In this document: positions 22,041 to 51,749 of the stretch, piece by piece
Layout: each line of letters opens with the position of its first letter
Position numbering within the stretch: position 1 is the stretch's first letter
Virus record (IMG/VR): IMGVR_UViG_3300017788_000033
Location: 1 to 53,242 of that record
Direction: 5' to 3' (one strand)
Source of the DNA: a virus
Length of the DNA stretch: 53,242 bases
Notes under the pieces: generated by a model
Database searches by the model: none
Told to the model about the DNA's origin: nothing
Seen by the model: the letters and a program-made list of their open reading frames with translations, nothing else
Position numbers and translations under genes: made by a program

Positions 22041-23636
22041 ATGCCCGCCATAATATCAGATCAATTTAGAATTTTAAATGCAGAGAACTTTGTAAAAAGT
22101 GTTTCTGGAGTAGGTGATACTTCAAATAAGTATTATACTTTTATCGGATTGCCAAATAGTGATAATACAGCAGCAGGCGGTTCTCCTACTTGGACTACTA
22201 ATACTCCTTCTCCTTTAGATGGGTTTAAAGAAGAAAATCAAGTTAAAGAGAGTATTATATCATTAAAACAAATTACAAATCAGGATGTTAGGAGACTTGT
22301 TAGAAAAGTTACGTGGGTTGCTGGAAATACTTATGAAATGTATAGACACGATTATAGTGTATTTAATGTTACTCCCGTAACATCACAAACAAGTTTATAT
22401 GAAGCAAATTATTATATTATAAACGAGGATTTGAGAGTTTATGTATGTTTACAAAATGGAACTGATCCGGAAAATCCAAAAGGAAGACCTTCTTTTGATC
22501 AACCAACTTTTATTGATTTAGAGCCTCGAGCGGCTGGATCTAGTGGTGATGGTTATATTTGGAAATACTTATATACAATAAAACCATCTGAGATTATTAA
22601 ATTTGATTCTATTGAATTTATTCCAGTGCCAGATGATTGGGGAAATTCCGGCGAATCAATTTCTACAAAAAATAATGCAATTGATGGTAAGATAGAAGTA
22701 ATATTAATTAATGATAGAGGATCTAATTATCAACCAATTTCTACTTCTTTTTCTAATGTTCCTATATTGGGTGATGGATCTGGAGGCAAAGCAACAGTTA
22801 CAATTGATTCTTTTGGAAAAGTATCTGAAATTTTTGTTACTGATGGAGGAAGGGGATATACTTATGGAACGGTGGAGTTTTATCCGGGAGCGCCTGGTTC
22901 GGAAATAACTGGCCCCCTACGTCAATTAAGTAATACTGGAATAGGAACTACTTCTGTATCATCTTTTAATGTAATTATTCCACCAAAAGGCGGTCATGGA
23001 TACGATATTTATCGAGAACTTGGTGCATATAGAGTTCTACTTTATTCTAGATATGAAACTTTAGAAAGTAATCCTGATGTTATTTTGGGTAATGATTTTG
23101 CTAGAGTGGGAATTGTAAAAAATCCAACAATTGTTGGAGATTCTGGCCAACTATTAAATTCATCTTTAGTTAGTGGTCTAAACGCTTTAAAATTATCTGG
23201 AGTTACCACAAATACTACATACGCTGTAGATTCTATAATCAAACAAAATGTTGGATTAGGTTCTACTGCAATTGGATTTGTTGCTTCTTGGGATTCAATA
23301 ACTGGGGTTTTAAAGTATTATCAACCAACTGGGTTAGCGTCAAGTGAAACGGGATTTAAAATTATTCCGTTTACTTCTAATCCAGACGTTGGATATGGAT
23401 TAACAATTAATGGATCTTCTGTTGTAGGTCCTGCATTATCTATCAACTCAAACTTTAGTGGTGTAACTACAACAATAAATAATAGAATATATCAGTTGGG
23501 TCAAGAGTTTATAGCTGGCATTTCTTCTGCTGAATATAATAAAAAATCTGGTGATATTATCTATTTGGATAATAGACAACCAATTCCCAGATCTGCTAAC
23601 CAAAAAGAAGACATTAAAATTGTATTGGAGTTCTAA
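22041..23636 (+). CDS. 8: Baseplate wedge subunit, gp8-like, 531 aa
   Basis: Homologue of T4 gp8, a dimeric wedge component bound to gp7 and gp10. Shared landmarks are the N-terminal 'RILNAENFVKSV....NKYYTFIGLP', a central 'GDGYIWKYLYTIKPSEIIKF' (about 173-192; T4 'GDGYVWEYLFEIPPD'), and the extreme C-terminus 'IIYLDNRQPIPRSANQKEDI' (T4 'MIYMENRPPIIMAMDQTEEI'). T4 gp8 is 334 aa; the extra about 200 residues lie mainly between 215 and 470. They include GxGY modules (GGRGYTYGTVEF near 271-282) and a variable segment. The ATG has no strong Shine-Dalgarno sequence but follows a late promoter. It ends 5 bases before the next gene. Confidence 0.9.
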   Translation: MPAIISDQFRILNAENFVKSVSGVGDTSNKYYTFIGLPNSDNTAAGGSPTWTTNTPSPLDGFKEENQVKESIISLKQITNQDVRRLVRKVTWVAGNTYEMYRHDYSVFNVTPVTSQTSLYEANYYIINEDLRVYVCLQNGTDPENPKGRPSFDQPTFIDLEPRAAGSSGDGYIWKYLYTIKPSEIIKFDSIEFIPVPDDWGNSGESISTKNNAIDGKIEVILINDRGSNYQPISTSFSNVPILGDGSGGKATVTIDSFGKVSEIFVTDGGRGYTYGTVEFYPGAPGSEITGPLRQLSNTGIGTTSVSSFNVIIPPKGGHGYDIYRELGAYRVLLYSRYETLESNPDVILGNDFARVGIVKNPTIVGDSGQLLNSSLVSGLNALKLSGVTTNTTYAVDSIIKQNVGLGSTAIGFVASWDSITGVLKYYQPTGLASSETGFKIIPFTSNPDVGYGLTINGSSVVGPALSINSNFSGVTTTINNRIYQLGQEFIAGISSAEYNKKSGDIIYLDNRQPIPRSANQKEDIKIVLEF

Positions 23637-32487: not shown

Positions 32488-33495
32488 ATGGCACTTTTAG
32501 TTCCCAATATTGGAGAAATTGAATCACTAAGGTATTTGATTGCCCAAAATAATCATACCGCTTCTTTGTCTGATCAATCTCCTAGAAACCTTGTTCTCAA
32601 ACTCTTCACTAGTAATACGACTCCAGCAGAATCGGATGTTCCTTCCGCTACTGCTTATTATGAGCCATATGGAGTTGGTAATACTAATGCATATGGATAT
32701 GCACCAAGCACTGGTTATCCATATTGTGTAAATAATAGATCTGATCAAGTTTATACCTCACAAACGGGCATTCTTCTTAATGGTTCACGTTGGAGAATTA
32801 ACAACGTAGGTTCTGGTACAACTGCAACTTATCCAGAACAAACCTTTACATTCACCGGAGATGCTGGTGATGTATATGGTTATTATGTAACCAGAGCAAA
32901 CAACATGCCTGTTGCTGTTCAGGGTGAAGTGCATGGTGCCAATGTCGGTGTGGGTACTACAGTGTCTAAGGGAGATAATACTGATCCAGTTATTGGAGTT
33001 ATTGGAAATCAATATATTACAATTGACCCAGACCAAAGCGTTGATGATTTAACTCTTGGAATGATTGTTGGTGGTAATGCTGGAATTCAAACCGGAACAC
33101 AAGTTATCGGTATTGATAGAGCTCTCAAAGTTGTCTATCTAGATAAGGCTCTTATTGATAACATCCAGGTTGCTACCGACCCAAGTGTAACCTTTAGTTA
33201 TGGAAAAATTGTTGTCACTGGCCACCAACTCGTAGCAGGAGATGTTCTTTATATTGCTGCTGGTACAGGCAATACAACTTTAAGTTCTGGAACATACACA
33301 GTATTCAGCGTCCCAAATGCTAATGAGTTCTATACTACACCATCTCTAACTGCAACTTCAAATGGAGTCGCTGGATTAAATACTGCAACTCTTTACAGCT
33401 CAATCATGTATGCTGAAAGATTCACAAATGGTCCTTACAGCATTCAGAACAATGGAGACCAAATTAAGATTACTCTTAACGTTGCTCTTGACTGA
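32488..33495 (+). CDS. Virion structural protein, 335 aa
   Basis: A 335-residue protein with a T4-like cyanophage structural layout but no named family that I can assign. The N-terminal region (MALLVPNIGEIESLRYLIAQN, then SPRNLVLKLFTSNTTPAESD) is typical of a phage virion domain with predicted early helix and strands. 'TYPEQTFTFTGDAGDVYGYYVTRANN' (about 112-137) follows. The C-terminal half has HxxxGDVLYIAAG-type beta modules like those in the giant proteins (GKIVVTGHQLVAGDVLYIAAG at about 240-260). Base use is less AT-rich than in the large neighbours, suggesting strong expression. It has its own late promoter and is followed by a strong terminator. Confidence 0.75.
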   Translation: MALLVPNIGEIESLRYLIAQNNHTASLSDQSPRNLVLKLFTSNTTPAESDVPSATAYYEPYGVGNTNAYGYAPSTGYPYCVNNRSDQVYTSQTGILLNGSRWRINNVGSGTTATYPEQTFTFTGDAGDVYGYYVTRANNMPVAVQGEVHGANVGVGTTVSKGDNTDPVIGVIGNQYITIDPDQSVDDLTLGMIVGGNAGIQTGTQVIGIDRALKVVYLDKALIDNIQVATDPSVTFSYGKIVVTGHQLVAGDVLYIAAGTGNTTLSSGTYTVFSVPNANEFYTTPSLTATSNGVAGLNTATLYSSIMYAERFTNGPYSIQNNGDQIKITLNVALD

Positions 33496-33498
33496 TAT

Positions 33499-33509
33499 CT
33501 AAATAAATA
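33499..33509 (+). promoter_or_regulatory. Double late promoter core just before a terminator
   Basis: CTAAATAAATA contains both CTAAATA (33499-33505) and ATAAATA (33503-33509). It starts only 16 bases before the terminator stem at 33525, so transcription from it would meet the terminator almost at once. Confidence 0.4.
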
Positions 33510-33524
33510 TATCATTGAATTTTT

Positions 33525-33556
33525 GGGGATTGTGTATAAACAGTCCCCCTTTTTTA
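33525..33556 (+). terminator. Intrinsic terminator after the 335-aa gene
   Basis: GGGGATTGT (33525-33533) pairs with ACAGTCCCC (33540-33548) through nine pairs, one a G-U, around a 6-base loop. It is followed by CTTTTTTATT. It ends transcription after the 335-aa virion gene and precludes an alternative start inside it for the next gene. Confidence 0.8.
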
Positions 33557-33582
33557 TTAGTAAATCACATTGTCGTGAACAG

Positions 33583-39390: not shown

Positions 39391-42300
39391 ATGACTAAAC
39401 AGGTACAGATAAGAAGGGGAACTACAGCTCAACATGCAGTCTTTACTGGAGCAGAAGGTGAAATAACTTTTAATACTGATACGCATTCAGTTGTTGCACA
39501 CAATGGAATCACAACAGGTGGATATGAATTAGCTAGAACAGATTTTGGAAACGTTCCTGTCGCTAAGTTTAGTGGAACTTTTGAAGTAGTTGGAGTAGCA
39601 ACAACTTCAATAGGATTAGGAAATTCATTATCTTCATGGGATGTAAAAGTTGGTCATGGTAATACCACACTTATTGTTGATGGGTCGGAACTTGTTACTG
39701 GAATTTTAACGGTTACTGGCCCAGTTACTTTAGCGAAAGAAAATACCGTAATAGGCGGTATGGATTTTGTAGGCGTTAGAACAGAAACTTCTCCAGAAGA
39801 TCCACTTTCCTCATGGCATGTTTCTGTAGGTAAAGGAAATACTGCTTTTGTTGTAGATCAAAACGCTTATATTGGTGGAATTGCAACAGTAACTACTACA
39901 AGGGGAACCGAAGCCACGTTTAATAAATTAACATTAACAAGTTATGGATCAACTACATTTGAATTGTCAACAGAAATTACAGCTAATGTAGGTATTGGCA
40001 CAACTGTTATTGGTATTGCTTACACAGATGGAGTAGCTATCGGAGATAAAGTAAGTATCGGAACATTTTTCTCCGATGTTACAATTACTGGATTTGCAAC
40101 AGTTGCAATTAGCACATCAAATCTATTTTTCCTACACACATCAATTTCCACTACGGTTAGTGCCGGATCAACTATTATTGGATTGACAACTACTACAAAT
40201 ATATCAATAGGAAATTCTATTAGTGTCACAGGTTATGCAATCACCAGTATTCCTATTGTCGGATTAACAACATTTAATGGTCCAGAAAGAAACGAAATCA
40301 TATTACAAACGTTTGTTAATGGAACAGTAGGGTCTTCAAGTACAGTCATTCCCGTTCCAGGAAATTCCGCAATATCTATTGGCAACTCTTTTACATCCGG
40401 ATCTGTAGTAAATAAAAGAATTGTTGGATTGGGAACCACATCTATTGCTCCTTATAATTCCGGAATTATTACAGCCACAACAACTACAGAAACTTTAGCT
40501 GTAGGTGCTACAGTTCTATATGTTGCAAATACTGCGTTAATTGCTATTGGTAATTCGGCTACAATTACTAACGTAGGTACTCAATATTTTATTGATGTTC
40601 CTATTACTGGAGTTGGAAATACATTTATAACAATTCCCACAGGTAGTGAATCAATTGGAACAGTTTCCATTCCTTCTGGATCTGTAGTTGCTATTAGTAC
40701 TATTTTAACAAACAGTGATTCAGTTATTCTTGATAGTGCAGTTGGAACTGGATTAACTGCAAATGATCCTGTTTCTATTAGTACAGTAACTGCAACTCTT
40801 TTCTATGGAGTTACTATTGGTGCAGCAAATACCATTGGAGTTGCAATTACTGCTGGATCAAATGCATCAATTTCAACGGTTACTAGTATTGGGCCTGCAT
40901 TGAGGATTGGTATAGGATCTACTTCACAATTTACAGTTTCTTCTGGAACAACAGCTATAATCCGAAGATACCAAGATATTGGAAGCACTCTTAATGTTGA
41001 TGTCCTTAATACTAAGGGATTGGACATCGTTGGTATTATGACCTTAAATGGTTTAACTTTTCCTACCGCAGATGGAAAGAAAGGTCAAGTCTTAACTACG
41101 GATGGTCAAGGAAATGTAGGATTTGCAACGGGCGGCGGCGCTGGCGGTTCTCAGGTTATTGTTAGAGTATCTCAAGCAACTGGAAATGATTCTAATGATG
41201 GAAGAACTCTTCCCGTTCAGACAATTAAAAAAGCTGCTCAAATTGCATCATTCTTAGGATATTATTTTAATACTGGTGCAACAATTCTAGTTGAATCTGG
41301 AGATTATATTGAGGATAACCCAATTATTCTTTATGATAATGTTAATATTATTGCAGATTCTCTTAGAAACGTAGTTGTCAGACCACAAAATGCTAACGTA
41401 GATTTATTTAAGGTCAGAAACGGTAACTATGTTACTGGTCTAACTCTCACCGATTATCTTGATGCAGAAACTAGAGCTCCACAATATACATTTAACCATT
41501 CAATTTCTTTTGACGAACCTTTTAATGAAAGTTTAGATAGAACTGGATATGCATGTACTTCAGTTGTAGGAATTACTTCCGTTCTTTATGATAATATTTC
41601 TGGTATTACGACTATTGTTACCGATAAAGATCATGAATTATATCCAGGAACCACCGTAAGACTTTCTGGTATTGCATTTACTTGTGGATATGATGAAGCA
41701 GGTATTTCGACCTTTGTTTATGACCATGTTTCTGGAGTATGCACGGCTACAACTTATACTCATAGAGGATATTCAATCGGAAGTAAAGTATTCCTCCATA
41801 ACTTACCATTCTCCTGTTCTGGTGAACATGCTGGAGTTACTACAACAATATTCCCAGATGGCACTTCACAATATGGAAGAGTATTTACTGTAACTGGTAT
41901 TAATACAATTGCAAAAACTATTAAGTTTAATGCTGGTGTTTCAACAATTCCTCATGTATTTGAAGGATGGGGTCGTAACTTTGTAACTAACGCCGTTTAT
42001 ACTCCTTCCAGTGGAATTACAACCATAACAGTTGCGACTGGAGTTGCGACAAATCATGGACTTCAAGTTGATGATAACGTATCTTTAGAAGGATTAAACT
42101 TCTCTTGTGTTGGATATACTCCAAATGCTCAAGTCAACATCACTAACGTAGATTATAACCATGTTGTTGGTATTGCTACGATTACAACTGATTCTGATCA
42201 CCGTGCTGAAGTAGGTAAGGGAATTAAACTTGCAGGCATTGCATTCTCATGTTCCGCTGAACATGCTGGAATTACCTCTACAATTTTCCCATATCCTGGA

Positions 42301-45300
42301 TCAAGTCCAAAAACTCTAGGGGCAAGTTATGATAGATTTGCAGTTAGATCGGTATTAAGTAGCACATCTTTTACTGTTGATGTTGGTATTTCTACTATTG
42401 CACATACCTATGTTTCTGGGGGAACTGCTCAATCCGGTATTACTACAACAATATTCCCAGATGGAACTGCACAACAACAAGGCGGAAACTCTAACGGATT
42501 CTCTGCTGATGGATTTACCTTTAAGGTAACTGGAATTACTACTAATACATTTACGTTTAAATCCGGTATTTCTACTATTGCACATACTTATGTTTCTGGT
42601 GGTACAGCCGGAAAAGTGGGAACAATTCAAAGAGTTAATACATACCCAGAACAAAATCCAGATGGAAGAAAAGATTTTGGTGTGTTCAAGGCAGAACAAC
42701 TCAATGAATTAACCATTAGAGCTGGAGTAAGCACAATTAAACATTATTATGTTCAGGGTGGAGATTTGGTTTTAAGTAAACCTTTAATTAATAAATCTCC
42801 ATATATTCAAAACTGTTCTATTCTTTCCTCTCTTGGTGGTAATGGCATTCTCGTTGATGGCGATAAAGTACTATCTCCAAACATTCCACCAGTACAGGGA
42901 ATTGCAGAAAATCCACCAGTAGGTGATACTCCAGAATTTGGTAAGTCAATGGTTGCTGCAACCTTTACCATGATTTCCTTCGATGGTATTGGTTGGAGAG
43001 TTATTAATGATGGATATTCTCAGGTTGTATCTTGTTTCCAAATTTTCTGTCGTTACGGATCATTAGCTCAGTCTGGTGGATATCTTTCCATTACTAACTC
43101 TGCTACAAACTTTGGTACTGTTGCTTTAAGGGCAACTGGATTTTCACCAAACTCATTCGTATTTGATAGAGGACGTATCGCTGCTACAGGAACTTCTGGT
43201 GGATTGCAAACTCTAAAATGCGTTGGATTTGGTAGAAGTGATCAGGATCTTTATGTTTTAAGATTCTTCAATGATGCTGGTGAAGATAAAACTAGCACAT
43301 TTAAACCAATTGTATTAGAGGCAACAGTAAATCCAGCAACAGGAGTTAATACGAATACCGATTATGTTACTGTTATTGGTCATCCCTTCTCAGAAGGAGA
43401 CTCTGTTGTATATCTAGGAAATGAACAAGCAGAACCACCAATTGTTATTGGTGGATTAGTTAATGGAAATATCTATTATGTGCAGTATATCGATAGTAAT
43501 ACTTTTAGACTATATGAAGATGAATCTCTTGGAAAACCAGTAGATCTTGTAGGTCCACTAAGATCTGGTATTAATACCTTCCAAAAGAATAACCAGGAAT
43601 TTATTGTTGATCAAATTATTTCAAATCACAATGTCTATCAAGAGTTGACTCTTGTTGGTGCTTCTACTGCTCATTTTGCTTCTGGAGCTCTTGTTCAACA
43701 AAATGTAAGTGGTGGTCAGGCAACTGGATATGCATTAACATACTTCTCTAGTGCTGGAACACTAATTGTTTCTGTTGAATCAGTTGGTGGTATAAGATAC
43801 ATGTTTGATGAGAGTGTTGCTAATGGAGGCGCAGGTGGAAATATTACTGATAATACTGGAGATCTTTCAGTAGGAGTAAGTTCTATTGCTGGAATTACAA
43901 CATATAGAACTATTGAATTTAAGGTAGACTCTACAGTTTCGGGCAATGTAATTCAGGGTATTGGAAGTCTCCCAGTTAATTATAGATGTCATTTACATAG
44001 ACCATCTATTGTCAACTCTTCTGCTCATACTTGGGAATATTCTGGATCTGGTACTGATTATAATGCACTTCCACAAAACGGCGGCAAAACAATTCTTGAA
44101 TCTGAACAAGTTTCAGAACTTGGAGGTCGTGTTTACGCTTCAGGTACAAACGAACTTGGTGACTTCAAGATTGGTACTCAGATTACTGCGGTAAACAGAA
44201 CTGGTAATATTTTCTTTAACAATAAGGTATCTATCGGTGAGTTGGATTCTATTAGACTTTCACTTTCCGGTGGTGTTGCGGTTGAAGAATTTTCAACTGA
44301 TTCAAACCTTGGTGAAGGTGAACTTGGTGGACCACAGAATAAGAGAGTTTCGACTCAATTGGCTGTTAGAAGCTTTATGGCCAACAGGCTCGGAACATTC
44401 ATTGATAAAACAGTATCACAGAATGCCATTCCAAATTCAGTTGTCCAACTTAATTCTTCAGGTCAAATTAATGCGGACTTAATTCCACCTAAGATTGTTA
44501 ATTTTACAAGAACTTTAGTTGGAAACGGTAAAACGGTTCTTGCTAACCAAATTCCTGCAATTAATATTTTACAGGGAGATACTGTAGTTGAACCAGAAAA
44601 TTCATTCGTTCTTGTCAATGACACTGTAAGTCAATATTTAATACTTGATAATCCAGGCAATAATTTTGTTTTCCCAAATGGATTTGAGGTTATCAGCACT
44701 CTAAATTCACAAGCAATAGGTGTTGTTACCACACCACCAAATGGTATTGGTGTTGGAACAACTGTCAAAAATTATGTTGGATATGGATTAACTGGTCTTG
44801 TAAAAGGGGTTCTTCAAACAGTAACTATTACTAGTGGTGGTTCCGGATATTCTCAGGCTGGAATTTATAGTGGAGTTCCTCTAACATCATCTAGTGGAAT
44901 TGGTATTGGCGCTTCAGCTATAATTACAGTTGGTGCAAGTGGCACCGTAACAGACGTTGATATTTTAGCTGGTGGTAGGTATTATGCTTCTGGCGATGTC
45001 CTCACTGCTTCCGACTCTGACATTGGTGGAAGATCTGGTGGTTCTGCTTTCACAGTTCAAGCTGCTTTAAATGAAACTAGACTATATTTAAAACTAACTA
45101 ATAACCAAAAGTTTGTTGGAAGTAATGTCCTTTCAGACTTTATTGCAGACTCAAATGCTGTTGGAATTAGTACTACGATTGATCTGGATTTAACATATTC
45201 AGATATTGATCCCACCGCAATGGAAACTGGAGGAGATATCGATTTCTCTAACGATAGAATTATTGTTGGTGCTGGACATACTTTACAGGATGGAGATGCT

Positions 45301-47490
45301 GTAAGGTATGTAACTAATCTGGGATCTAACATTGCAGGATTAATTGAAGGAAATACATATTTTGTTAAGAGGGTCGGAGTTTCTTCCGTTGAACTTCACA
45401 ATAATTATGGATTACTCTCTAGAAGAGATTTGACAGGTAGTGGTATTGGAACGCATTCTTTAATTAGAATTGGAGTTTCAACTTCAACTAGTAGAATTCA
45501 CTTCATTAATCATGGATACAGTATCGGAGATCCTGTAAGAGTTTCTGGAAATGTTCCAGTCGGCGTAGATACCGGTTCTTTCTATTATGTCGGTGGTATA
45601 ACACAAAACGCATTCAGTCTTCACACAATTAGATCTGATGCTACAGCTTCAGTGAATGGAGTTAACTTAAATCAAGTTTCAATTGCACAAACTGGAACTG
45701 GAACAATTACGTTCACAAAACAAAACGTAAGGTATTCAGCTAATGTTAATACTTCATCAACAGATCCAGAAAACTGGTCTCTCTTAGCACAACAAGATAT
45801 TGATGCTGCTAATATTATTAGTGGAACTATTAGTCCATCTAGACTTGGTAATGGATCCGCTAATTCCGATACAGTTCTATATGGAAACTCAGAATATCAA
45901 AAAGTAGTTCGCAGTGTAGGTATTGCAAGTACTACTCCAATCGGTGTTATTGCATCAAGTTCTGATTTTGGTGTGGGATTCACAACACATTATGGGAACA
46001 TTGAACTTAAATTAAATAGAGTTCAATCCACAGTAGATCTTTTTTCAACTCTTGGTATTGCTAAATTTAAATCATCAACATTTACTATCGGTGATGATGG
46101 AGCAGTAAGTATTAAGAGTTCTGCGACTGGTGACGTTGATGCTGCAACATTGGGTGGTCAAGCTGGCTCATACTATCTAAACTCAGCAAACCATACTGGA
46201 ATTATTCCAATTAATAGAGGAGGTACAGGAGTTTCTGGTGTTCCTGCAGATGGTGCAATTCTAATCGGCAATGGAACCGCATATAATCTATCTAATGCAC
46301 CTACTTTAAATGGAACCTATTACTTCACAAGAAATAATGGCGGTAGAGTTGGAAACACATCTAATTACGCTCTTCAGGCATACTCAACTGGTAATAATGC
46401 AGCTGGTATGTCCTTCCATAAGAGTGGTCACTATGCAATTAACATGGGTCTTGATAATGATAACGTATTCAGAATTGGTGGTTGGTCAGCATCTGCAAAC
46501 AGATGGGAACTTGATATGTCTGGTAACACTTACCAGGCCGGATACAATTATGCTTATAGATTTGTAGATCGTGATAATACTAATTTCTACTGCGATCCTT
46601 CTTCAAGTAATCAATTTACAAACAGTTATCATAGTAATGAATGTAGAGCGTTATTCTACACGTTTAATGGAGAAGGTGGAAATAGTGGTAACCCAACAAG
46701 AGCATATTCAATTTTCCAAGAAGGCGGCGGTTGGGGCTTCCCATACCCCGACCTAAGAATTGCATTCCACACTGGTATTAAGATTGGTGCCAATGGTCCT
46801 TCATATGAAGGAACTAGAGTCTACTCTGACTATGACATGAGCGATCTATGTATTCAACTTGTTGGACCATCTAATTACTCATTTAAACAGAAGTGGCAAA
46901 GAACTGATAATGGTACTGGTTACTATAGTGGAACAAATAATGCTCATTTCTATCCAAACCCAAATAGATATGGTTCTTGGAGAATTGATGGATCTAGAAG
47001 TGGTTGGTGGGGATTAGATTTCCCAGAACAAGATATGCAATTGATGATGAACTATAACTCTTGTGGCATTCATAGGGGTGACTATGGTTGGATGTTCTGG
47101 GGTCATAATGCGAGATTGCATATTTATGGAAGCTATCACTCTGGTTGGTCCGATGAAAGATTAAAGGAAAACATTCGTGACTTTGATAATGAAGCTGCAT
47201 TGGATGCTGTTTCTAAACTTAGAACAAGAATCTTTAATTGGAATCCACTAGCAAAACAAATTTATAAGGATGTTAATCCAAATGAAGAAGTAGGATTTGT
47301 TGCTCAAGAAATGCAAGAGGTTCTACCAGAGTTAGTTGTAGTTAATGAGGTTCCAAATAATTATAATGATGAAAAATATTTAACGATTGACTGGAATAAA
47401 TTAATTCCATATACCATTGGTTCTATAAATAGATTAAGAGAAAGAGTAGAGTCTCTTGAAGAAAAAGTTTCTAAATTAATAGGAGAGTAA
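39391..47490 (+). CDS. Tail fibre with S74 self-cleaving chaperone domain, 2699 aa
   Basis: The N-terminus ('VQIRRGTTAQHAVFTGAEGEITFNTDTHSVVAHNG', about 4-38) is the attachment-type domain found at the start of many phage fibres (Mtd/hyaluronidase-like). Residues about 590-700 contain 'GNDSNDGRTLPVQTIKKAAQIA....ILVESGDYIEDNPIILYDNVNI', a pectate-lyase-like beta-helix start. Residues about 727-1123 repeat the GITTITT/Cys modules shared with the gp7-like protein. The C-terminal 113 residues start at SDERLKENI (Ser2587), the Peptidase_S74 intramolecular chaperone that trimerises the fibre and then cuts itself off before that Ser. It contains 'VGFVAQEMQEVLPELV' and ends in a coiled coil (INRLRERVESLEEKVSKL). 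Probably the main host-recognition fibre. Confidence 0.85.
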   Translation: MTKQVQIRRGTTAQHAVFTGAEGEITFNTDTHSVVAHNGITTGGYELARTDFGNVPVAKFSGTFEVVGVATTSIGLGNSLSSWDVKVGHGNTTLIVDGSELVTGILTVTGPVTLAKENTVIGGMDFVGVRTETSPEDPLSSWHVSVGKGNTAFVVDQNAYIGGIATVTTTRGTEATFNKLTLTSYGSTTFELSTEITANVGIGTTVIGIAYTDGVAIGDKVSIGTFFSDVTITGFATVAISTSNLFFLHTSISTTVSAGSTIIGLTTTTNISIGNSISVTGYAITSIPIVGLTTFNGPERNEIILQTFVNGTVGSSSTVIPVPGNSAISIGNSFTSGSVVNKRIVGLGTTSIAPYNSGIITATTTTETLAVGATVLYVANTALIAIGNSATITNVGTQYFIDVPITGVGNTFITIPTGSESIGTVSIPSGSVVAISTILTNSDSVILDSAVGTGLTANDPVSISTVTATLFYGVTIGAANTIGVAITAGSNASISTVTSIGPALRIGIGSTSQFTVSSGTTAIIRRYQDIGSTLNVDVLNTKGLDIVGIMTLNGLTFPTADGKKGQVLTTDGQGNVGFATGGGAGGSQVIVRVSQATGNDSNDGRTLPVQTIKKAAQIASFLGYYFNTGATILVESGDYIEDNPIILYDNVNIIADSLRNVVVRPQNANVDLFKVRNGNYVTGLTLTDYLDAETRAPQYTFNHSISFDEPFNESLDRTGYACTSVVGITSVLYDNISGITTIVTDKDHELYPGTTVRLSGIAFTCGYDEAGISTFVYDHVSGVCTATTYTHRGYSIGSKVFLHNLPFSCSGEHAGVTTTIFPDGTSQYGRVFTVTGINTIAKTIKFNAGVSTIPHVFEGWGRNFVTNAVYTPSSGITTITVATGVATNHGLQVDDNVSLEGLNFSCVGYTPNAQVNITNVDYNHVVGIATITTDSDHRAEVGKGIKLAGIAFSCSAEHAGITSTIFPYPGSSPKTLGASYDRFAVRSVLSSTSFTVDVGISTIAHTYVSGGTAQSGITTTIFPDGTAQQQGGNSNGFSADGFTFKVTGITTNTFTFKSGISTIAHTYVSGGTAGKVGTIQRVNTYPEQNPDGRKDFGVFKAEQLNELTIRAGVSTIKHYYVQGGDLVLSKPLINKSPYIQNCSILSSLGGNGILVDGDKVLSPNIPPVQGIAENPPVGDTPEFGKSMVAATFTMISFDGIGWRVINDGYSQVVSCFQIFCRYGSLAQSGGYLSITNSATNFGTVALRATGFSPNSFVFDRGRIAATGTSGGLQTLKCVGFGRSDQDLYVLRFFNDAGEDKTSTFKPIVLEATVNPATGVNTNTDYVTVIGHPFSEGDSVVYLGNEQAEPPIVIGGLVNGNIYYVQYIDSNTFRLYEDESLGKPVDLVGPLRSGINTFQKNNQEFIVDQIISNHNVYQELTLVGASTAHFASGALVQQNVSGGQATGYALTYFSSAGTLIVSVESVGGIRYMFDESVANGGAGGNITDNTGDLSVGVSSIAGITTYRTIEFKVDSTVSGNVIQGIGSLPVNYRCHLHRPSIVNSSAHTWEYSGSGTDYNALPQNGGKTILESEQVSELGGRVYASGTNELGDFKIGTQITAVNRTGNIFFNNKVSIGELDSIRLSLSGGVAVEEFSTDSNLGEGELGGPQNKRVSTQLAVRSFMANRLGTFIDKTVSQNAIPNSVVQLNSSGQINADLIPPKIVNFTRTLVGNGKTVLANQIPAINILQGDTVVEPENSFVLVNDTVSQYLILDNPGNNFVFPNGFEVISTLNSQAIGVVTTPPNGIGVGTTVKNYVGYGLTGLVKGVLQTVTITSGGSGYSQAGIYSGVPLTSSSGIGIGASAIITVGASGTVTDVDILAGGRYYASGDVLTASDSDIGGRSGGSAFTVQAALNETRLYLKLTNNQKFVGSNVLSDFIADSNAVGISTTIDLDLTYSDIDPTAMETGGDIDFSNDRIIVGAGHTLQDGDAVRYVTNLGSNIAGLIEGNTYFVKRVGVSSVELHNNYGLLSRRDLTGSGIGTHSLIRIGVSTSTSRIHFINHGYSIGDPVRVSGNVPVGVDTGSFYYVGGITQNAFSLHTIRSDATASVNGVNLNQVSIAQTGTGTITFTKQNVRYSANVNTSSTDPENWSLLAQQDIDAANIISGTISPSRLGNGSANSDTVLYGNSEYQKVVRSVGIASTTPIGVIASSSDFGVGFTTHYGNIELKLNRVQSTVDLFSTLGIAKFKSSTFTIGDDGAVSIKSSATGDVDAATLGGQAGSYYLNSANHTGIIPINRGGTGVSGVPADGAILIGNGTAYNLSNAPTLNGTYYFTRNNGGRVGNTSNYALQAYSTGNNAAGMSFHKSGHYAINMGLDNDNVFRIGGWSASANRWELDMSGNTYQAGYNYAYRFVDRDNTNFYCDPSSSNQFTNSYHSNECRALFYTFNGEGGNSGNPTRAYSIFQEGGGWGFPYPDLRIAFHTGIKIGANGPSYEGTRVYSDYDMSDLCIQLVGPSNYSFKQKWQRTDNGTGYYSGTNNAHFYPNPNRYGSWRIDGSRSGWWGLDFPEQDMQLMMNYNSCGIHRGDYGWMFWGHNARLHIYGSYHSGWSDERLKENIRDFDNEAALDAVSKLRTRIFNWNPLAKQIYKDVNPNEEVGFVAQEMQEVLPELVVVNEVPNNYNDEKYLTIDWNKLIPYTIGSINRLRERVESLEEKVSKLIGE
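41570..42760 (+). repeat. GITTITT/cysteine modules in the fibre
   Basis: Residues about 727-1123 of the fibre contain units of the form 'ISGITTIVT...H.L..G..V.LSGIAFTCGYDE' and 'TTIFPDGTSQYGRVFTV..........AGVSTIPHVFEGWG'. They match the units at 17886-19250 closely in protein and less so in DNA. Confidence 0.75.
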
Positions 47491-47493
47491 AAC

Positions 47494-47931
47494 ATGGCTT
47501 TAACTATGCCCACATATACTGACCCACGAGGGTATGAATGGGAAAATCCATACATGGTCATCAGCTCAGTAAAGGTTAAAAAAACTTTTACACCAGTTGA
47601 TCCTACGATGGCGGGATTACCTGATCCAGGTACACTACCTCAACATTTATGCGAAGAAGGTAATTACGGTTCTATTACTGTAGATGTATATAGAAGTAAA
47701 GCGGATAGAGAAAAGGGGACCTTACCTATTGCTCAAATTTCTGAAAGAGCTGCAGATGCATGGAATGCTCCATGGCATGAAGTTGGTCAATTACAATCTA
47801 GAAATCCTGAGACTTATGTTCCGATGATTTTTAAAATTAGATACGTTGATGAAGGTAATTTACTATCTGATGCTTATGATCATTTAACTACTAATCATCC
47901 ATTTTTTAAAGATTGTACTTTTGTAGATTAA
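47494..47931 (+). CDS. Virion-associated protein, 145 aa
   Basis: A 145-residue protein just after the fibre, with AGGAGAG (47481-47487) inside the last codons of the fibre as ribosome binding site. It contains 'YEWENPYMVISSVKVKKTFTPVDP' (about 14-37), 'GSITVDVYRSKADREKG' (about 62-78), 'ADAWNAPWHEVGQ' (about 88-100) and a C-terminal 'AYDHLTTNHPFFKDCTFVD'. This suggests a small beta-rich cap or fibre-assembly protein. I do not recognise a named family; coupling to the fibre gene suggests a shared role. Confidence 0.65.
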   Translation: MALTMPTYTDPRGYEWENPYMVISSVKVKKTFTPVDPTMAGLPDPGTLPQHLCEEGNYGSITVDVYRSKADREKGTLPIAQISERAADAWNAPWHEVGQLQSRNPETYVPMIFKIRYVDEGNLLSDAYDHLTTNHPFFKDCTFVD

Positions 47932-47950: not shown

Positions 47951-47958
47951 TATAAATA
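47951..47958 (+). promoter_or_regulatory. Late promoter, exact TATAAATA, overlapping a terminator
   Basis: TATAAATA lies 26 bases before the gene 13 ATG. Its last three bases are also the first bases of the terminator stem at 47956-47984. Confidence 0.6.
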
Positions 47959-47984
47959 CCTCTAGAAGACTAGGGGTATTTTTT
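47956..47984 (+). terminator. Intrinsic terminator abutting the gene 13 start
   Basis: ATACCTCTA (47956-47964) pairs with TAGGGGTAT (47971-47979) through nine pairs, one a G-U, around GAAGAC. The run of six T (47979-47984) ends exactly at the ATG of gene 13. The G-rich right arm may double as the ribosome binding site of gene 13. Confidence 0.65.
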
Positions 47985-48815
47985 ATGGCGCAGCCATCTA
48001 GTAGAGCGGAGTTGAAAGAATACTGCCTCAAACAACTAGGAAAACCAGTTTTAGAAATCAATGTAGATGACGATCAAATTGATAATTTAATTGACGACGC
48101 TATTCAGTATTTTCATGAACGTCATTATGATGGTATTGATCGCGTATTCTTAAAACATAGACTTACCCCTGCAACTAAAGGAACTCTTTCAGAATCTGGA
48201 CCAGTGGGTTCCGCAACGACTTCCCCAGTTGTTGTTGGTGCTGGATTAACTTCACTTACTTATGTGGAAGGAGTTAACTATCTTCCTCTTCCCGATTCAA
48301 TTATTGGTGTTAATAATATTCTTAAGATAAATTCAAGTACAGTATCTGATGGACTCTTCAATATCAAATATCAACTGTTCTTGAACGACGTTTATTACTA
48401 TGGTGCATTAGATCTTCTTAATTATGCGATGGTTAAAAGATATCTTGAAGATTTAGATTTTCTTCTAAATCCACATGCACAAATTCGTTTTAATAAGTTA
48501 AATCATAAGTTATATCTAGACATTGATTGGTCAGAAGTTGGTGAAAATGAGTATGTAATTATTGATTGTTATCGCATCGTTGATCCATCAGATGCGCCAA
48601 AACTTTACAATGATTGGTGGCTAAAGAAATATCTGACTGCGCTCATTAAAAAACAGTGGGGTCAAAATATGAGTAAGTTTCAAGGAGTTTTGCTTCCAGG
48701 CGGAGTTCAACTTAATGGAAGACAGATCTATGATGATGGAGTTGCAGAGATAGAAAAACTTGAACAACAACTTAAGGATGAGTACGAACTACCACCATTT
48801 GATCTCATAGGTTAA
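47985..48815 (+). CDS. 13: Neck protein, gp13-like
   Basis: Homologue of T4 gp13, which with gp14 closes the filled head and forms the neck. The N-terminus 'SRAELKEYCLKQLGKPVLEINVDDDQIDNLIDDAIQYFHERHYDGI' (about 6-51) corresponds to T4 '[42 protein letters not shown]'. The C-terminal 'WWLKKYLTALIKKQWGQNMSKFQGVLLPGGVQLNGR' (about 206-241) corresponds to T4 '[36 protein letters not shown]'. It ends 'LPPFDLIG', like T4 'DPPFGILVG'. Length, 276 aa, is slightly below T4 (about 309). Gene 14 follows with one base between stop and ATG. Confidence 0.92.
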   Translation: MAQPSSRAELKEYCLKQLGKPVLEINVDDDQIDNLIDDAIQYFHERHYDGIDRVFLKHRLTPATKGTLSESGPVGSATTSPVVVGAGLTSLTYVEGVNYLPLPDSIIGVNNILKINSSTVSDGLFNIKYQLFLNDVYYYGALDLLNYAMVKRYLEDLDFLLNPHAQIRFNKLNHKLYLDIDWSEVGENEYVIIDCYRIVDPSDAPKLYNDWWLKKYLTALIKKQWGQNMSKFQGVLLPGGVQLNGRQIYDDGVAEIEKLEQQLKDEYELPPFDLIG

Positions 48816-48816
48816 T

Positions 48817-50247
48817 ATGTCACCACTCAATTCTTATTTTTTACAAGGATCTCCGAGTGAGCAAAGACTTATTCAAGATCTGATCAACGAGCAACTTAAA
48901 ATGTATGGGCAAGATGTTCTATACATGCCAAGAAGAATTATTGGCGAAAATACCGTCATTAAAGAAGTCACTGCTTCCAAGTTTGATGATAGTTTTCGTA
49001 TTGAAGCTTATCTAATGAACTTTGAAGGCTTCAGTGGTAACGGAGATATCTTAAGTAAGTTTGGTGTGAGAAGTAATGACGAAATTAATCTTGTAATTTC
49101 TAAAGAGAGATATGATGATTTCATTTCTCCATTATTGAAGTTATGGCCAGAGGATGAAAGAAAAGTTGCATATAGACCACAAGAAGGAGATTTAATATGG
49201 TTTCCTCTTGATGAATCATTGTTTGAAATCAAATATGTAGAAGGGAAAAAACCTTTTTATCAACTCAATAATCTTTATGTCTATGAATTAAGATGTGAAA
49301 GATTTGAATATGAAGATGAAATTATTGATGTTCCGGAGGTAGATTCTTCAGGAATTGAAATCAATGAATCTATTAAAGATCTTGGGAATGTTTATACTAT
49401 TCAAATGGTTGGAACTGGAGCTACTACTGCAGTTGCTACAGTTGGTTTTGCAACGACAAATCCAAATTCTAAATCAGTTCAATATATTGATTTGATTAAT
49501 GATGGATTTGGATATTCTTTTGCACCCACTGTTTCTATATCCACTGCACCATCAGGGGGGTCTACAGCAACAGCTGTTGCAATTATGACAAGTAGATCTT
49601 CAAATCAAAAACTTTCTATTGATAGAATTCTTATTACAAATCCAGGATTTGGATATACACAACCTCCAACAGTAACTATTTCTGGAGGAGGCGGAAGTGG
49701 TGGAATTGCAACTGCTGTAATAAACACTGGAGTTCTTGGAATAGTAGGACTTTCTTCTGGTGGAGTAGGATATACCACAACACCACAAATAACTATTCAA
49801 AGAACATTTATTCCTTCCAGCACTGGTATTTCTTCAAATATCAGAAATGCACAAGCAGAGGCAGTTCTCAATTCAAATGGAGTCGTTGTTGCAGTTCGTT
49901 ATTCTAATGCTGGTGCTGGATATACATTTACTCCAACAATAGAATTTACAAATTCAACTGCAACAACATTTGGAGATTATGATTATAATGAAGTTGTTAC
50001 TGGTTCTAGAACAGGTACAACTGGTTATGTAAGAAGTTGGGATGCTGCAAATAGAGTCCTTAAAGTTGCAATTGTGGATGGAAACTTTGCGAGAGGTGAG
50101 GCTATTACTGGAGTTGGTGCAAGTTATAAAGTTTCAACGGTACAATCTAATGAATTCTTAGATGCTTATGCTGAGAATATTGAAATTGAATTGGCTGCTG
50201 ATCAAATTTTAGATTTCAGTCAGAAGAACCCATTTGGCGAATACTAA
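48817..50247 (+). CDS. 14: Neck protein, gp14-like, with inserted GxGY modules
   Basis: Homologue of T4 gp14, the second neck-ring protein. Matching parts are 'DLINEQLKMYGQDVLYMPRRII' (about 21-42; T4 '[22 protein letters not shown]'), 'FRIEAYLMNFEGFSGNGDILSKFGV.SNDEINLVIS' (about 55-91), and 'PQEGDLIWFPLDESLFEIKYVE....FYQL' (about 122-151; T4 '[22 protein letters not shown]'). T4 gp14 is 256 aa; this one is 476 because residues about 202-382 hold four GxGY repeats (NDGFGYSFAPTVSIS, NPGFGYTQPPTVTIS, GGVGYTTTPQITI, AGAGYTFTPTIEF). The end, 'QKNPFGEY', may correspond to T4 'SSPFDNDFMD'. An insertion in a neck protein is unusual. Confidence 0.9.
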   Translation: MSPLNSYFLQGSPSEQRLIQDLINEQLKMYGQDVLYMPRRIIGENTVIKEVTASKFDDSFRIEAYLMNFEGFSGNGDILSKFGVRSNDEINLVISKERYDDFISPLLKLWPEDERKVAYRPQEGDLIWFPLDESLFEIKYVEGKKPFYQLNNLYVYELRCERFEYEDEIIDVPEVDSSGIEINESIKDLGNVYTIQMVGTGATTAVATVGFATTNPNSKSVQYIDLINDGFGYSFAPTVSISTAPSGGSTATAVAIMTSRSSNQKLSIDRILITNPGFGYTQPPTVTISGGGGSGGIATAVINTGVLGIVGLSSGGVGYTTTPQITIQRTFIPSSTGISSNIRNAQAEAVLNSNGVVVAVRYSNAGAGYTFTPTIEFTNSTATTFGDYDYNEVVTGSRTGTTGYVRSWDAANRVLKVAIVDGNFARGEAITGVGASYKVSTVQSNEFLDAYAENIEIELAADQILDFSQKNPFGEY

Positions 50248-50250
50248 ATA
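50244..50250 (+). promoter_or_regulatory. Late promoter candidate, CTAAATA
   Basis: CTAAATA overlaps the stop of gene 14 and ends 24 bases before the gene 15 ATG. Confidence 0.45.
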
Positions 50251-50274
50251 ATTATTACTCTACAATAACTTGTA

Positions 50275-51324
50275 ATGATCTCAAATTATTTTTACCACGA
50301 AATATTGAGAAAGACCATTGTGGCTTTCGGTACATTATTTAATGATATTAAAATCAAACATAAAGATAACGCAGGAGATGATTTTAGTATCATTACTGTC
50401 CCGATTGCATATGGCCCTATTCAGAAGTTTTTAGCGAGAATTGAACAGGTTCCTGATTTAAAAAAAAGAGTAGCAATTACTCTTCCTAGAATGTCATTTG
50501 AAATGACAGGAATTTCATATGATCCCAGTAGAAAGTCTTCTACTATGCAAACTTTTAAAGCTTTGGATCAAGATAGTAATGAACTAACAAAAGTTTTTAT
50601 GCCTGTTCCATACAATGTGAACTTTAAACTTTCAATTATGTCCAAGTTGAATGAAGACGCATTACAAGTCGTTGAACAAATACTTCCATACTTTCAACCA
50701 CACTTAAACTTAACGGTAGATTTGGTATCAAGTATTGGGGAAAAAAGAGATATTCCAATGATTCTTGAGAGAATCACAATGGATGATCAATATGAAGGAG
50801 ATTTTACGACAAGGAGAGTTTTAATTTATACTCTAGATTTTGTAGCAAAAACATATTTGTTTGGACCTGCTGGAACTCCAAATGAATCTCTCATCAAACA
50901 AGTTCAGGTTGATTATTATACAAATACTAACAGAGTTAATGCCTCAAGACAACTTAGATATGTTGCGGAACCAAGAGCACTCAAGGATTATAACAATGAT
51001 GAAATTACTGTTATTGCAGATAATATTGATGAAGAAAAAACCCAGTTTGAAGTTTCCGATGCAACTGGTCTAATTGAAAAATCATATATTATGATTGATT
51101 CCGAATCTATGTTTATTCGTGAAATTACTGGCAATACTTTACTTGTAAACAGAGGTCAAGATAAGACAGATATTGTAAGTCATACAGCTGGAACTGCTAT
51201 CAATGTAATTAATGATGTAGACGATGAGTTAATTGATCTAGACGACGACTTTGGATTTAGTGAATCTCGTTATGATTTTGCTGACGGCAAAGTTTATAGC
51301 ACTACTAAAGGAACTGATGTATGA
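50275..51324 (+). CDS. 15: Tail sheath stabiliser, gp15-like, with extra module
   Basis: Homologue of T4 gp15, the hexameric tail terminator that stabilises the sheath and joins tail to neck. The start 'NYFYHEILRKTIVAFGTLFNDIKIKH' (about 4-29; T4 'GYFYNSSFRRYATLMGDLFSNIQIKR') and the signature 'ALQVVEQILPYFQPHLNLTV' (about 130-149; T4 'MFQIVEQILPYFQPHFNTTM') are clear. T4 gp15 is about 272 aa; this one is 349. A C-terminal segment (about 247-315: 'TQFEVSDATGLIEKSYIMID', then 'SESMFIREITGNTLLVNRGQ' and 'HTAGTAI') is the same small module seen in gp7 and the DUF4815 protein. The tail is acidic. Its TGA overlaps the gene 16 ATG. Confidence 0.92.
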   Translation: MISNYFYHEILRKTIVAFGTLFNDIKIKHKDNAGDDFSIITVPIAYGPIQKFLARIEQVPDLKKRVAITLPRMSFEMTGISYDPSRKSSTMQTFKALDQDSNELTKVFMPVPYNVNFKLSIMSKLNEDALQVVEQILPYFQPHLNLTVDLVSSIGEKRDIPMILERITMDDQYEGDFTTRRVLIYTLDFVAKTYLFGPAGTPNESLIKQVQVDYYTNTNRVNASRQLRYVAEPRALKDYNNDEITVIADNIDEEKTQFEVSDATGLIEKSYIMIDSESMFIREITGNTLLVNRGQDKTDIVSHTAGTAINVINDVDDELIDLDDDFGFSESRYDFADGKVYSTTKGTDV

Positions 51325-51749
51325 GTTTTGAAGATATTGATAAGGCGTTAGATATTGAAACAACTCCGATTAAATCGGAGATTGTCAAAACAGAACCTGC
51401 TGTAATAAAGAAACCAGGAGAGTCTCCAGACCAACTCCAGAAGGACTATGAGTACTCTAGAGGGCAACTATATTCCATTATTGAGAAGGGACAAGAGGCG
51501 ATCAATGGCATTCTAGAACTTGCACAAGAATCCGACTCTCCCAGAGCTTATGAAGTTGCTGGACAATTGATTAAAAATGTTGGAGATGTTACAGATAAGC
51601 TTTTGGATCTTCAGAAAAAAATGAAAGATATTAACAAAGAAGAAAAAGGTGCAACTCCAACAAGTGTCACTAACAATGCAGTATTTTTTGGATCAACTGC
51701 AGAACTTCAGAAGTTTCTAAAGAGTTCTATGAACCAAGATCCTAAATAA
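51321..51749 (+). CDS. 16: Small terminase subunit, gp16-like
   Basis: Homologue of T4 gp16, which recognises phage DNA and regulates the large terminase gp17. The protein is 142 aa (T4 164). The central helical part, 'QLYSIIEKGQEAINGILELAQESDSPRAYEVAGQLIKNVGDVTDKLLDLQKKMKD' (about 50-104), is the conserved oligomerising coiled-coil region. 'VTNNAVFFGSTAELQKFLK' (about 116-134) is the typical C-terminal signature in T4-like phages. The N-terminus is acidic and probably flexible. It overlaps gene 15 by four bases (ATGA) and lies 23 bases before the 475-aa mosaic gene, not directly before gene 17. Confidence 0.9.
   Translation: MSFEDIDKALDIETTPIKSEIVKTEPAVIKKPGESPDQLQKDYEYSRGQLYSIIEKGQEAINGILELAQESDSPRAYEVAGQLIKNVGDVTDKLLDLQKKMKDINKEEKGATPTSVTNNAVFFGSTAELQKFLKSSMNQDPK

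Follow-up and report, generated by a model that had tools for sequence, protein, structure and literature searches.

Gene organization and anatomy of the gp13 leader

The window, a 53-kb IMG/VR virus record of 53,242 nucleotides, comes from a T4-like cyanophage and carries gp13, gp14, gp15 and the small terminase gp16 consecutively at 47985-51749. Upstream lies a large tail-fibre gene, with Mtd_N at its start and a Peptidase_S74 chaperone at its end, followed by a 145-aa ORF that found no match in Pfam or PHROG and that terminates 22 nt ahead of a hairpin stem, the last base of its stop codon being 47931. Gene 14 starts one base past gene 13, and gp13 and gp14 would be expressed from one shared transcript. 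The features of the locus are listed below.

39391..47490, plus strand: large tail-fibre gene (Pfam PF18454, PF13884)
47494..47931, plus strand: 145-aa ORF immediately 5' of the element, belonging to one of at least 16 unrelated families that occupy this place among relatives
47951..47958, plus strand: T4-type late promoter TATAAATA, positions -13 to -6, exact consensus
47954..47965, plus strand: hairpin left arm AAATACCTCTAG, whose pairing is preserved by compensatory changes in relatives
47964, plus strand: predicted transcription start A, placed by promoter spacing
47966..47969, plus strand: hairpin loop AAGA, GAAA in most relatives
47970..47981, plus strand: hairpin right arm CTAGGGGTATTT, with compensatory changes in relatives
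47973..47977, plus strand: GGGGU, probable Shine-Dalgarno (SD) sequence 7 nt 5' of the ATG, from anti-SD duplex prediction
47979..47984, plus strand: six-U tract of a putative intrinsic terminator, read from the sequence, abutting the gp13 ATG
47985..48815, plus strand: gene 13, neck/head-tail adaptor (phrog_211, E 3.2e-46)
48817..50247, plus strand: gene 14, head closure (phrog_460, E 3.5e-123)

The element spans 37 bases at 47951-47987, TATAAATACCTCTAGAAGACTAGGGGTATTTTTTATG, and opens with TATAAATA, an exact late-promoter match 34 nt ahead of the gp13 ATG. In T4, late promoters occupy positions -13 to -6 and have TATAAATA as their consensus (PMC1524935), and those of cyanophage S-PM2 are NATAAATA (PMC2984593). 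A late promoter is recognized by this consensus roughly 20-60 nt 5' of a late gene, with a -35 element being unnecessary, and this is the arrangement found here. The last five bases of TATAAATA are also the first five of the hairpin left arm, which confirms the overlap of promoter and left arm described in an earlier note on this DNA. That note gave the stem as 9 bp; the hairpin stands, while its length does not, as the outer A-U pairs had been omitted from a stem that comprises 12 fully paired base pairs with one G-U pair (-13.8 kcal/mol for the hairpin alone).

The six U residues at 47979-47984 end exactly at the gene 13 ATG, as had been claimed. Intrinsic terminators consist of a GC-containing stem, a short loop and an immediate U-tract, and the element has all three, with its 12-bp stem, loop of four and six U, and a d'Aubenton-Carafa terminator score of +19; the strength of this terminator is uncertain because only four of the pairs are G-C. 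GGGGU is the sole SD-like stretch preceding the ATG, with a predicted anti-SD duplex of -6.6 kcal/mol, in agreement with the proposal that the G-rich right arm holds the only possible ribosome binding site (RBS). Among 85 distinct elements the SD is GGGGU in 79 and UGGGU in six, and it is GAGGU in L482/L483. The predicted +1, A47964, lies about 6 nt past the motif, as expected for late promoters, and one base short of the left-arm end; it is an A in 85/85 distinct gp13 elements, which fits the expectation that local transcripts would begin inside or after that arm. Two other identities were considered and rejected: a simple sigma-70 promoter, as no sigma-70-like site is listed at the element, and a known RNA family, as no Rfam match rose above its cut-off.

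Conservation, covariation and distribution

Among 15 distinct gp13 elements whose loops have four bases, standard pairs occupy 98.9% of pair cells, and at the two inner pairs that vary both partners change (C-G, U-G and U-A at one; C-G, U-G, A-U and G-U at the other). Stem pairing exceeds that of 498/500 shuffles and of every slid control. The same layout with another stem, ATACCCTA/TAGGGTAT, precedes the gp13b family, a very distant member of phrog_211, and further stems so arranged precede gp25, RusA-like resolvase genes, GIY-YIG-like genes (an assignment made by eye) and fibres. Across these differing stems and genes the promoter-to-stem offset is almost constant.

The element is also present in a cultured isolate, S-SCSM2R (Synechococcus WH7803), where the exact element occurs in one copy. 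T4-type late promoters depend on the sigma factor gp55, on gp33 and on the clamp gp45, and this phage encodes homologues of gp55 (phrog_234, E 1e-69), gp33 (phrog_254, E 3e-29) and gp45 (phrog_223, E 2e-86), the window itself being a partial contig. The core sequence precedes gp13 in 118/119 contigs containing it; the sole exception is L194 (minus strand, 4040), where the gp13-type core stands before a non-gp13 ORF (MNRDSKGNQMILA...), with a 9-base spacer. Given this distribution and the single copy in S-SCSM2R, a roving mobile element was rejected. A single vertical origin is likewise not supported, given that hairpin presence requires 8-10 changes on the gp13 tree, a tree that does not separate gain, loss and transfer. 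An identical 32-mer precedes gp13 genes sharing 44-95% identity, which reflects either transfer or strong constraint.

Association of the late promoter with the terminator hairpin

Larger sets selected by DNA pattern are biased, with the promoter and outer stem fixed by construction, and they served only to examine flanks, loops, inner pairs and the genes downstream. Association was measured in an unbiased set of 147 gp13 loci retrieved solely via the gp13 protein. A terminator-like hairpin lies within a few bases of the gp13 start codon in 25 of them, and NTAAATA is present in 25/25 hairpin-bearing leaders compared with 45/122 hairpin-less ones (within 50 nt; Fisher p 6e-10), as expected if promoter, hairpin and U-tract form one unit, as the earlier note had it. 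It is very improbable that the element is a chance A/T-rich sequence, or an mRNA 3'-end stabiliser, in which TATAAATA goes unused. Such a reading would suit the window as a whole, where TATAAATA is not enriched (four found, all on the plus strand, versus 10.8 expected), but it is opposed by the 25/25 co-occurrence, by conservation that extends up to random flanks, and by a Monte Carlo simulation in which random continuations of TATAAATA produced a hairpin of at least 10 bp plus a T-tract in 0/400,000 cases.

Within the 25 hairpin-bearing leaders, NTAAATA overlaps the left arm in 23 and lies in the loop in two (L477 and L479). In the latter two, CTAAATA forms part of the loop of a terminator hairpin of 14-15 bp 5' of gp13, and local RNA would there begin within the right arm.

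These positions bear on whether the overlap is simply a product of genome compaction, a terminator packed beside a promoter with shared bases that have no functional role. T4-like genomes are compact, promoter-hairpin neighbours in S-SCSM2R overlap little, and at another place in that genome (L445, near 7814) a terminator precedes a distinct promoter; moreover, a UAUUU in the terminator right arm demands AAAUA on the left, so that the terminator by itself already supplies half of the promoter motif. However, the two bases completing ATAAATA lie outside the stem and are present in 23/23 overlapping cases of the unbiased set. Together with the two additional loci that place the promoter in the loop and the nearly fixed offset across different stems and genes, this makes compaction an unlikely explanation.

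The element lies at a module boundary

We compared 54 window-like gp13 leaders in 1281 pairs with unrelated upstreams. Upstream identity is about 0.27, ranging over 0.26-0.34 (random 0.29), until about 11 nt before ATAAATA, climbs over the last six bases before this motif, and is near 1.0 across promoter and stem, dipping only in the loop; within gp13 it is about 0.9. At least 16 mutually dissimilar protein families lie directly upstream of a near-identical cassette, and 140 upstream flanks fall into 31 nucleotide clusters.

The distance to the preceding gene differs as well: the median gap from stop codon to gp13 is 5 nt for hairpin-less genes versus 52 nt for hairpin-bearing ones, and 70/117 hairpin-less gp13 genes lie at most 10 nt from the upstream stop codon. 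The element thus seems to substitute insulation for operon coupling, repeatedly or through transfer, and probably keeps gp13 expression independent of whichever genes are plugged in upstream. Neither this sharp junction nor the presence of the element in many phages had been recognized in the earlier note.

Proposed mechanism and accessibility of the ribosome binding site

The composite, its conservation, covariation and recurrence, and its position at the junction can be read from the sequences; from these we infer that the promoter is used, that termination occurs, that the RBS is hidden, and why the arrangement was selected. We consider it likely that late promoter and intrinsic terminator here form one composite, whose role is to insulate the gp13-14 neck operon against the variable fibre module. 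Polymerase arriving from upstream would copy the full hairpin and six U, and would terminate at the gp13 start codon; any read-through transcripts would keep GGGGU paired within the stem and would be poorly translated. Polymerase with the phage sigma factor gp55 would instead use TATAAATA and initiate at about 47964, yielding a local RNA that keeps just two left-arm bases, so that the hairpin could not form, termination would be escaped and the ribosome site would be offered. With stop, start and ribosome site all supplied by the element itself, gp13 expression would be independent of the left side, and fibre modules would consequently be exchangeable up to the element's left edge. Cyanobacteria are generally said to be without Rho, in which case intrinsic terminators would matter more.

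The mechanism proposed in the earlier note is thus plausible and its description of the element exact. Its term for the element, a 'switch' separating fibre from neck expression, is too strong, because the upstream fibre genes likewise have late-promoter motifs; a permanent insulator describes the arrangement better than a regulated switch. The accompanying claim that the RBS is freed in local RNA fares unevenly. Over the 85 elements, the predicted probability that the SD is unpaired is 0.002 in upstream-started RNA versus a mean of 0.40 in local RNA, in the direction claimed. However, the SD is predicted to be more than 50% unpaired in only 22% of local leaders, and in the window's own local RNA, where GGGGUAUUUUUU is predicted to re-pair with codons 11-15, it is 14% unpaired.

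The placement of a late promoter in the 5' arm of an RBS hairpin has precedents in T4 e, soc, 49, I-TevI and segB and in Aeh1 mobE; long transcripts fold and are silent, while late transcripts without the 5' arm are translated (PMC3014915, PMC2988022). The element could be mainly a translational device of the gene e type, hiding the RBS on early/middle read-through RNA with termination weak or absent. In favor of this, e and I-TevI are documented directly with soc and 49 as further cases (PMC3014915, PMC2988022), the T4 segB leader (ATAAATACTC...GAGATATTTATG) is strikingly similar and differs by few bases from the layout seen here, and the SD is predicted to be fully paired in read-through RNA. 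Nevertheless, six to nine U directly after the stem are invariant in our elements and missing from the segB layout. In addition, the right arm is C-rich and holds no SD in some composites before other genes, and the U-tract is retained in some that lack the SD, from which it follows that RBS hiding is not general to the layout. We therefore regard a mainly translational role as improbable, and favor the insulating promoter/terminator composite.

Relation to known systems

The element and the T4 RBS hairpins are alike in placing the late promoter in the 5' arm and the SD in the 3' arm. In contrast to the T4 hairpins, the element has a U-tract ending at the start codon and should therefore terminate as well, serves a core neck gene, and leaves the AUG outside the stem behind a U-rich SD-AUG spacer. 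As a parallel observation, fused leaders occur on RusA-like resolvase and GIY-YIG-like genes (L204 and others; L324, L335 and others), and late-promoter RBS hairpins likewise control their T4 counterparts, the resolvase gene 49 and GIY-YIG endonucleases.

Intrinsic terminators at T4 operon joints, such as that of gene 35/36, resemble the element in placing a hairpin at an operon joint. T4 itself (NC_000866) has a 6-bp GC hairpin, GGGGCC-GCAA-GGCCCC, in the wac-13 gap (L447, ~23594-23610); this lies at the same joint but is without a U-tract and without a late promoter.

A second class of comparison is provided by PeSLs, which reportedly (Arbiol 2010; Comeau 2014) are small early promoter/terminator composites between unrelated genes. 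They share with the element the combination of promoter and terminator joining unrelated genes. In contrast, the element's promoter is late (gp55-type) where that of PeSLs is sigma-70 early, and it sits inside the stem; the element is fixed before gp13, where PeSLs are dispersed, and its single copy in S-SCSM2R differs from the several recombining copies per genome by which PeSLs are defined. As cited in PMC4503421, these promoter/stem-loop composites occur in T4-like phages and have been proposed as mediators of modular exchange.

The gating principle of RBS hairpins is thus known from T4, and promoter-terminator composites at joints are known with early promoters; what is new here is the U-tract, the association with a core structural gene and the location at a module boundary. 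In the literature searched, in which subscription journals were thinly covered, we found no description of a late U-tract composite before gp13. If our reading is correct, a single element of about 35 bases, complete in itself, would stop, start and gate expression, uniting the late promoter within an RBS hairpin with the promoter-terminator composites of module joints, and would explain how whole tail-fibre modules are replaced in ocean T4-like phages without disturbing neck-protein dosage. The cultured S-SCSM2R provides a concrete site for asking whether such elements fix recombination breakpoints, and the element would offer a natural blueprint for a compact insulated promoter. More tentatively, and with less confidence than in the gp13 case, late-promoter/terminator composites might be standard in marine T4-like phages as insulators of variable/core joints, with the left-edge promoter motif acting as microhomology for fibre exchange.

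Other promoter/terminator arrangements

Elsewhere in the window, an unfused promoter/terminator pair lies at 33499-33560, between the ORF at 32488-33495 and the following fibre gene; here the late-promoter-like CTAAATA is followed 18 nt on by a strong terminator, GGGGATTGTGTATAAACAGTCCCC (-15.5 kcal/mol), and CTTTTTT. A further leader, ATAAATACCCTCAAATATGAGGGTATTTTT, occurs with the signal-peptide start MKKIILL at L206, L259, L261, L271, L273, L279, L286 and L312, where it precedes differing secreted or lipoprotein-like proteins, the downstream proteins being swapped. In these loci TATGCTATAAAT resembles an extended -10 sigma-70 promoter, and the fused layout of the ATAAATACCCTCAAATATGAGGGTATTTTT leaders apparently arose separately.
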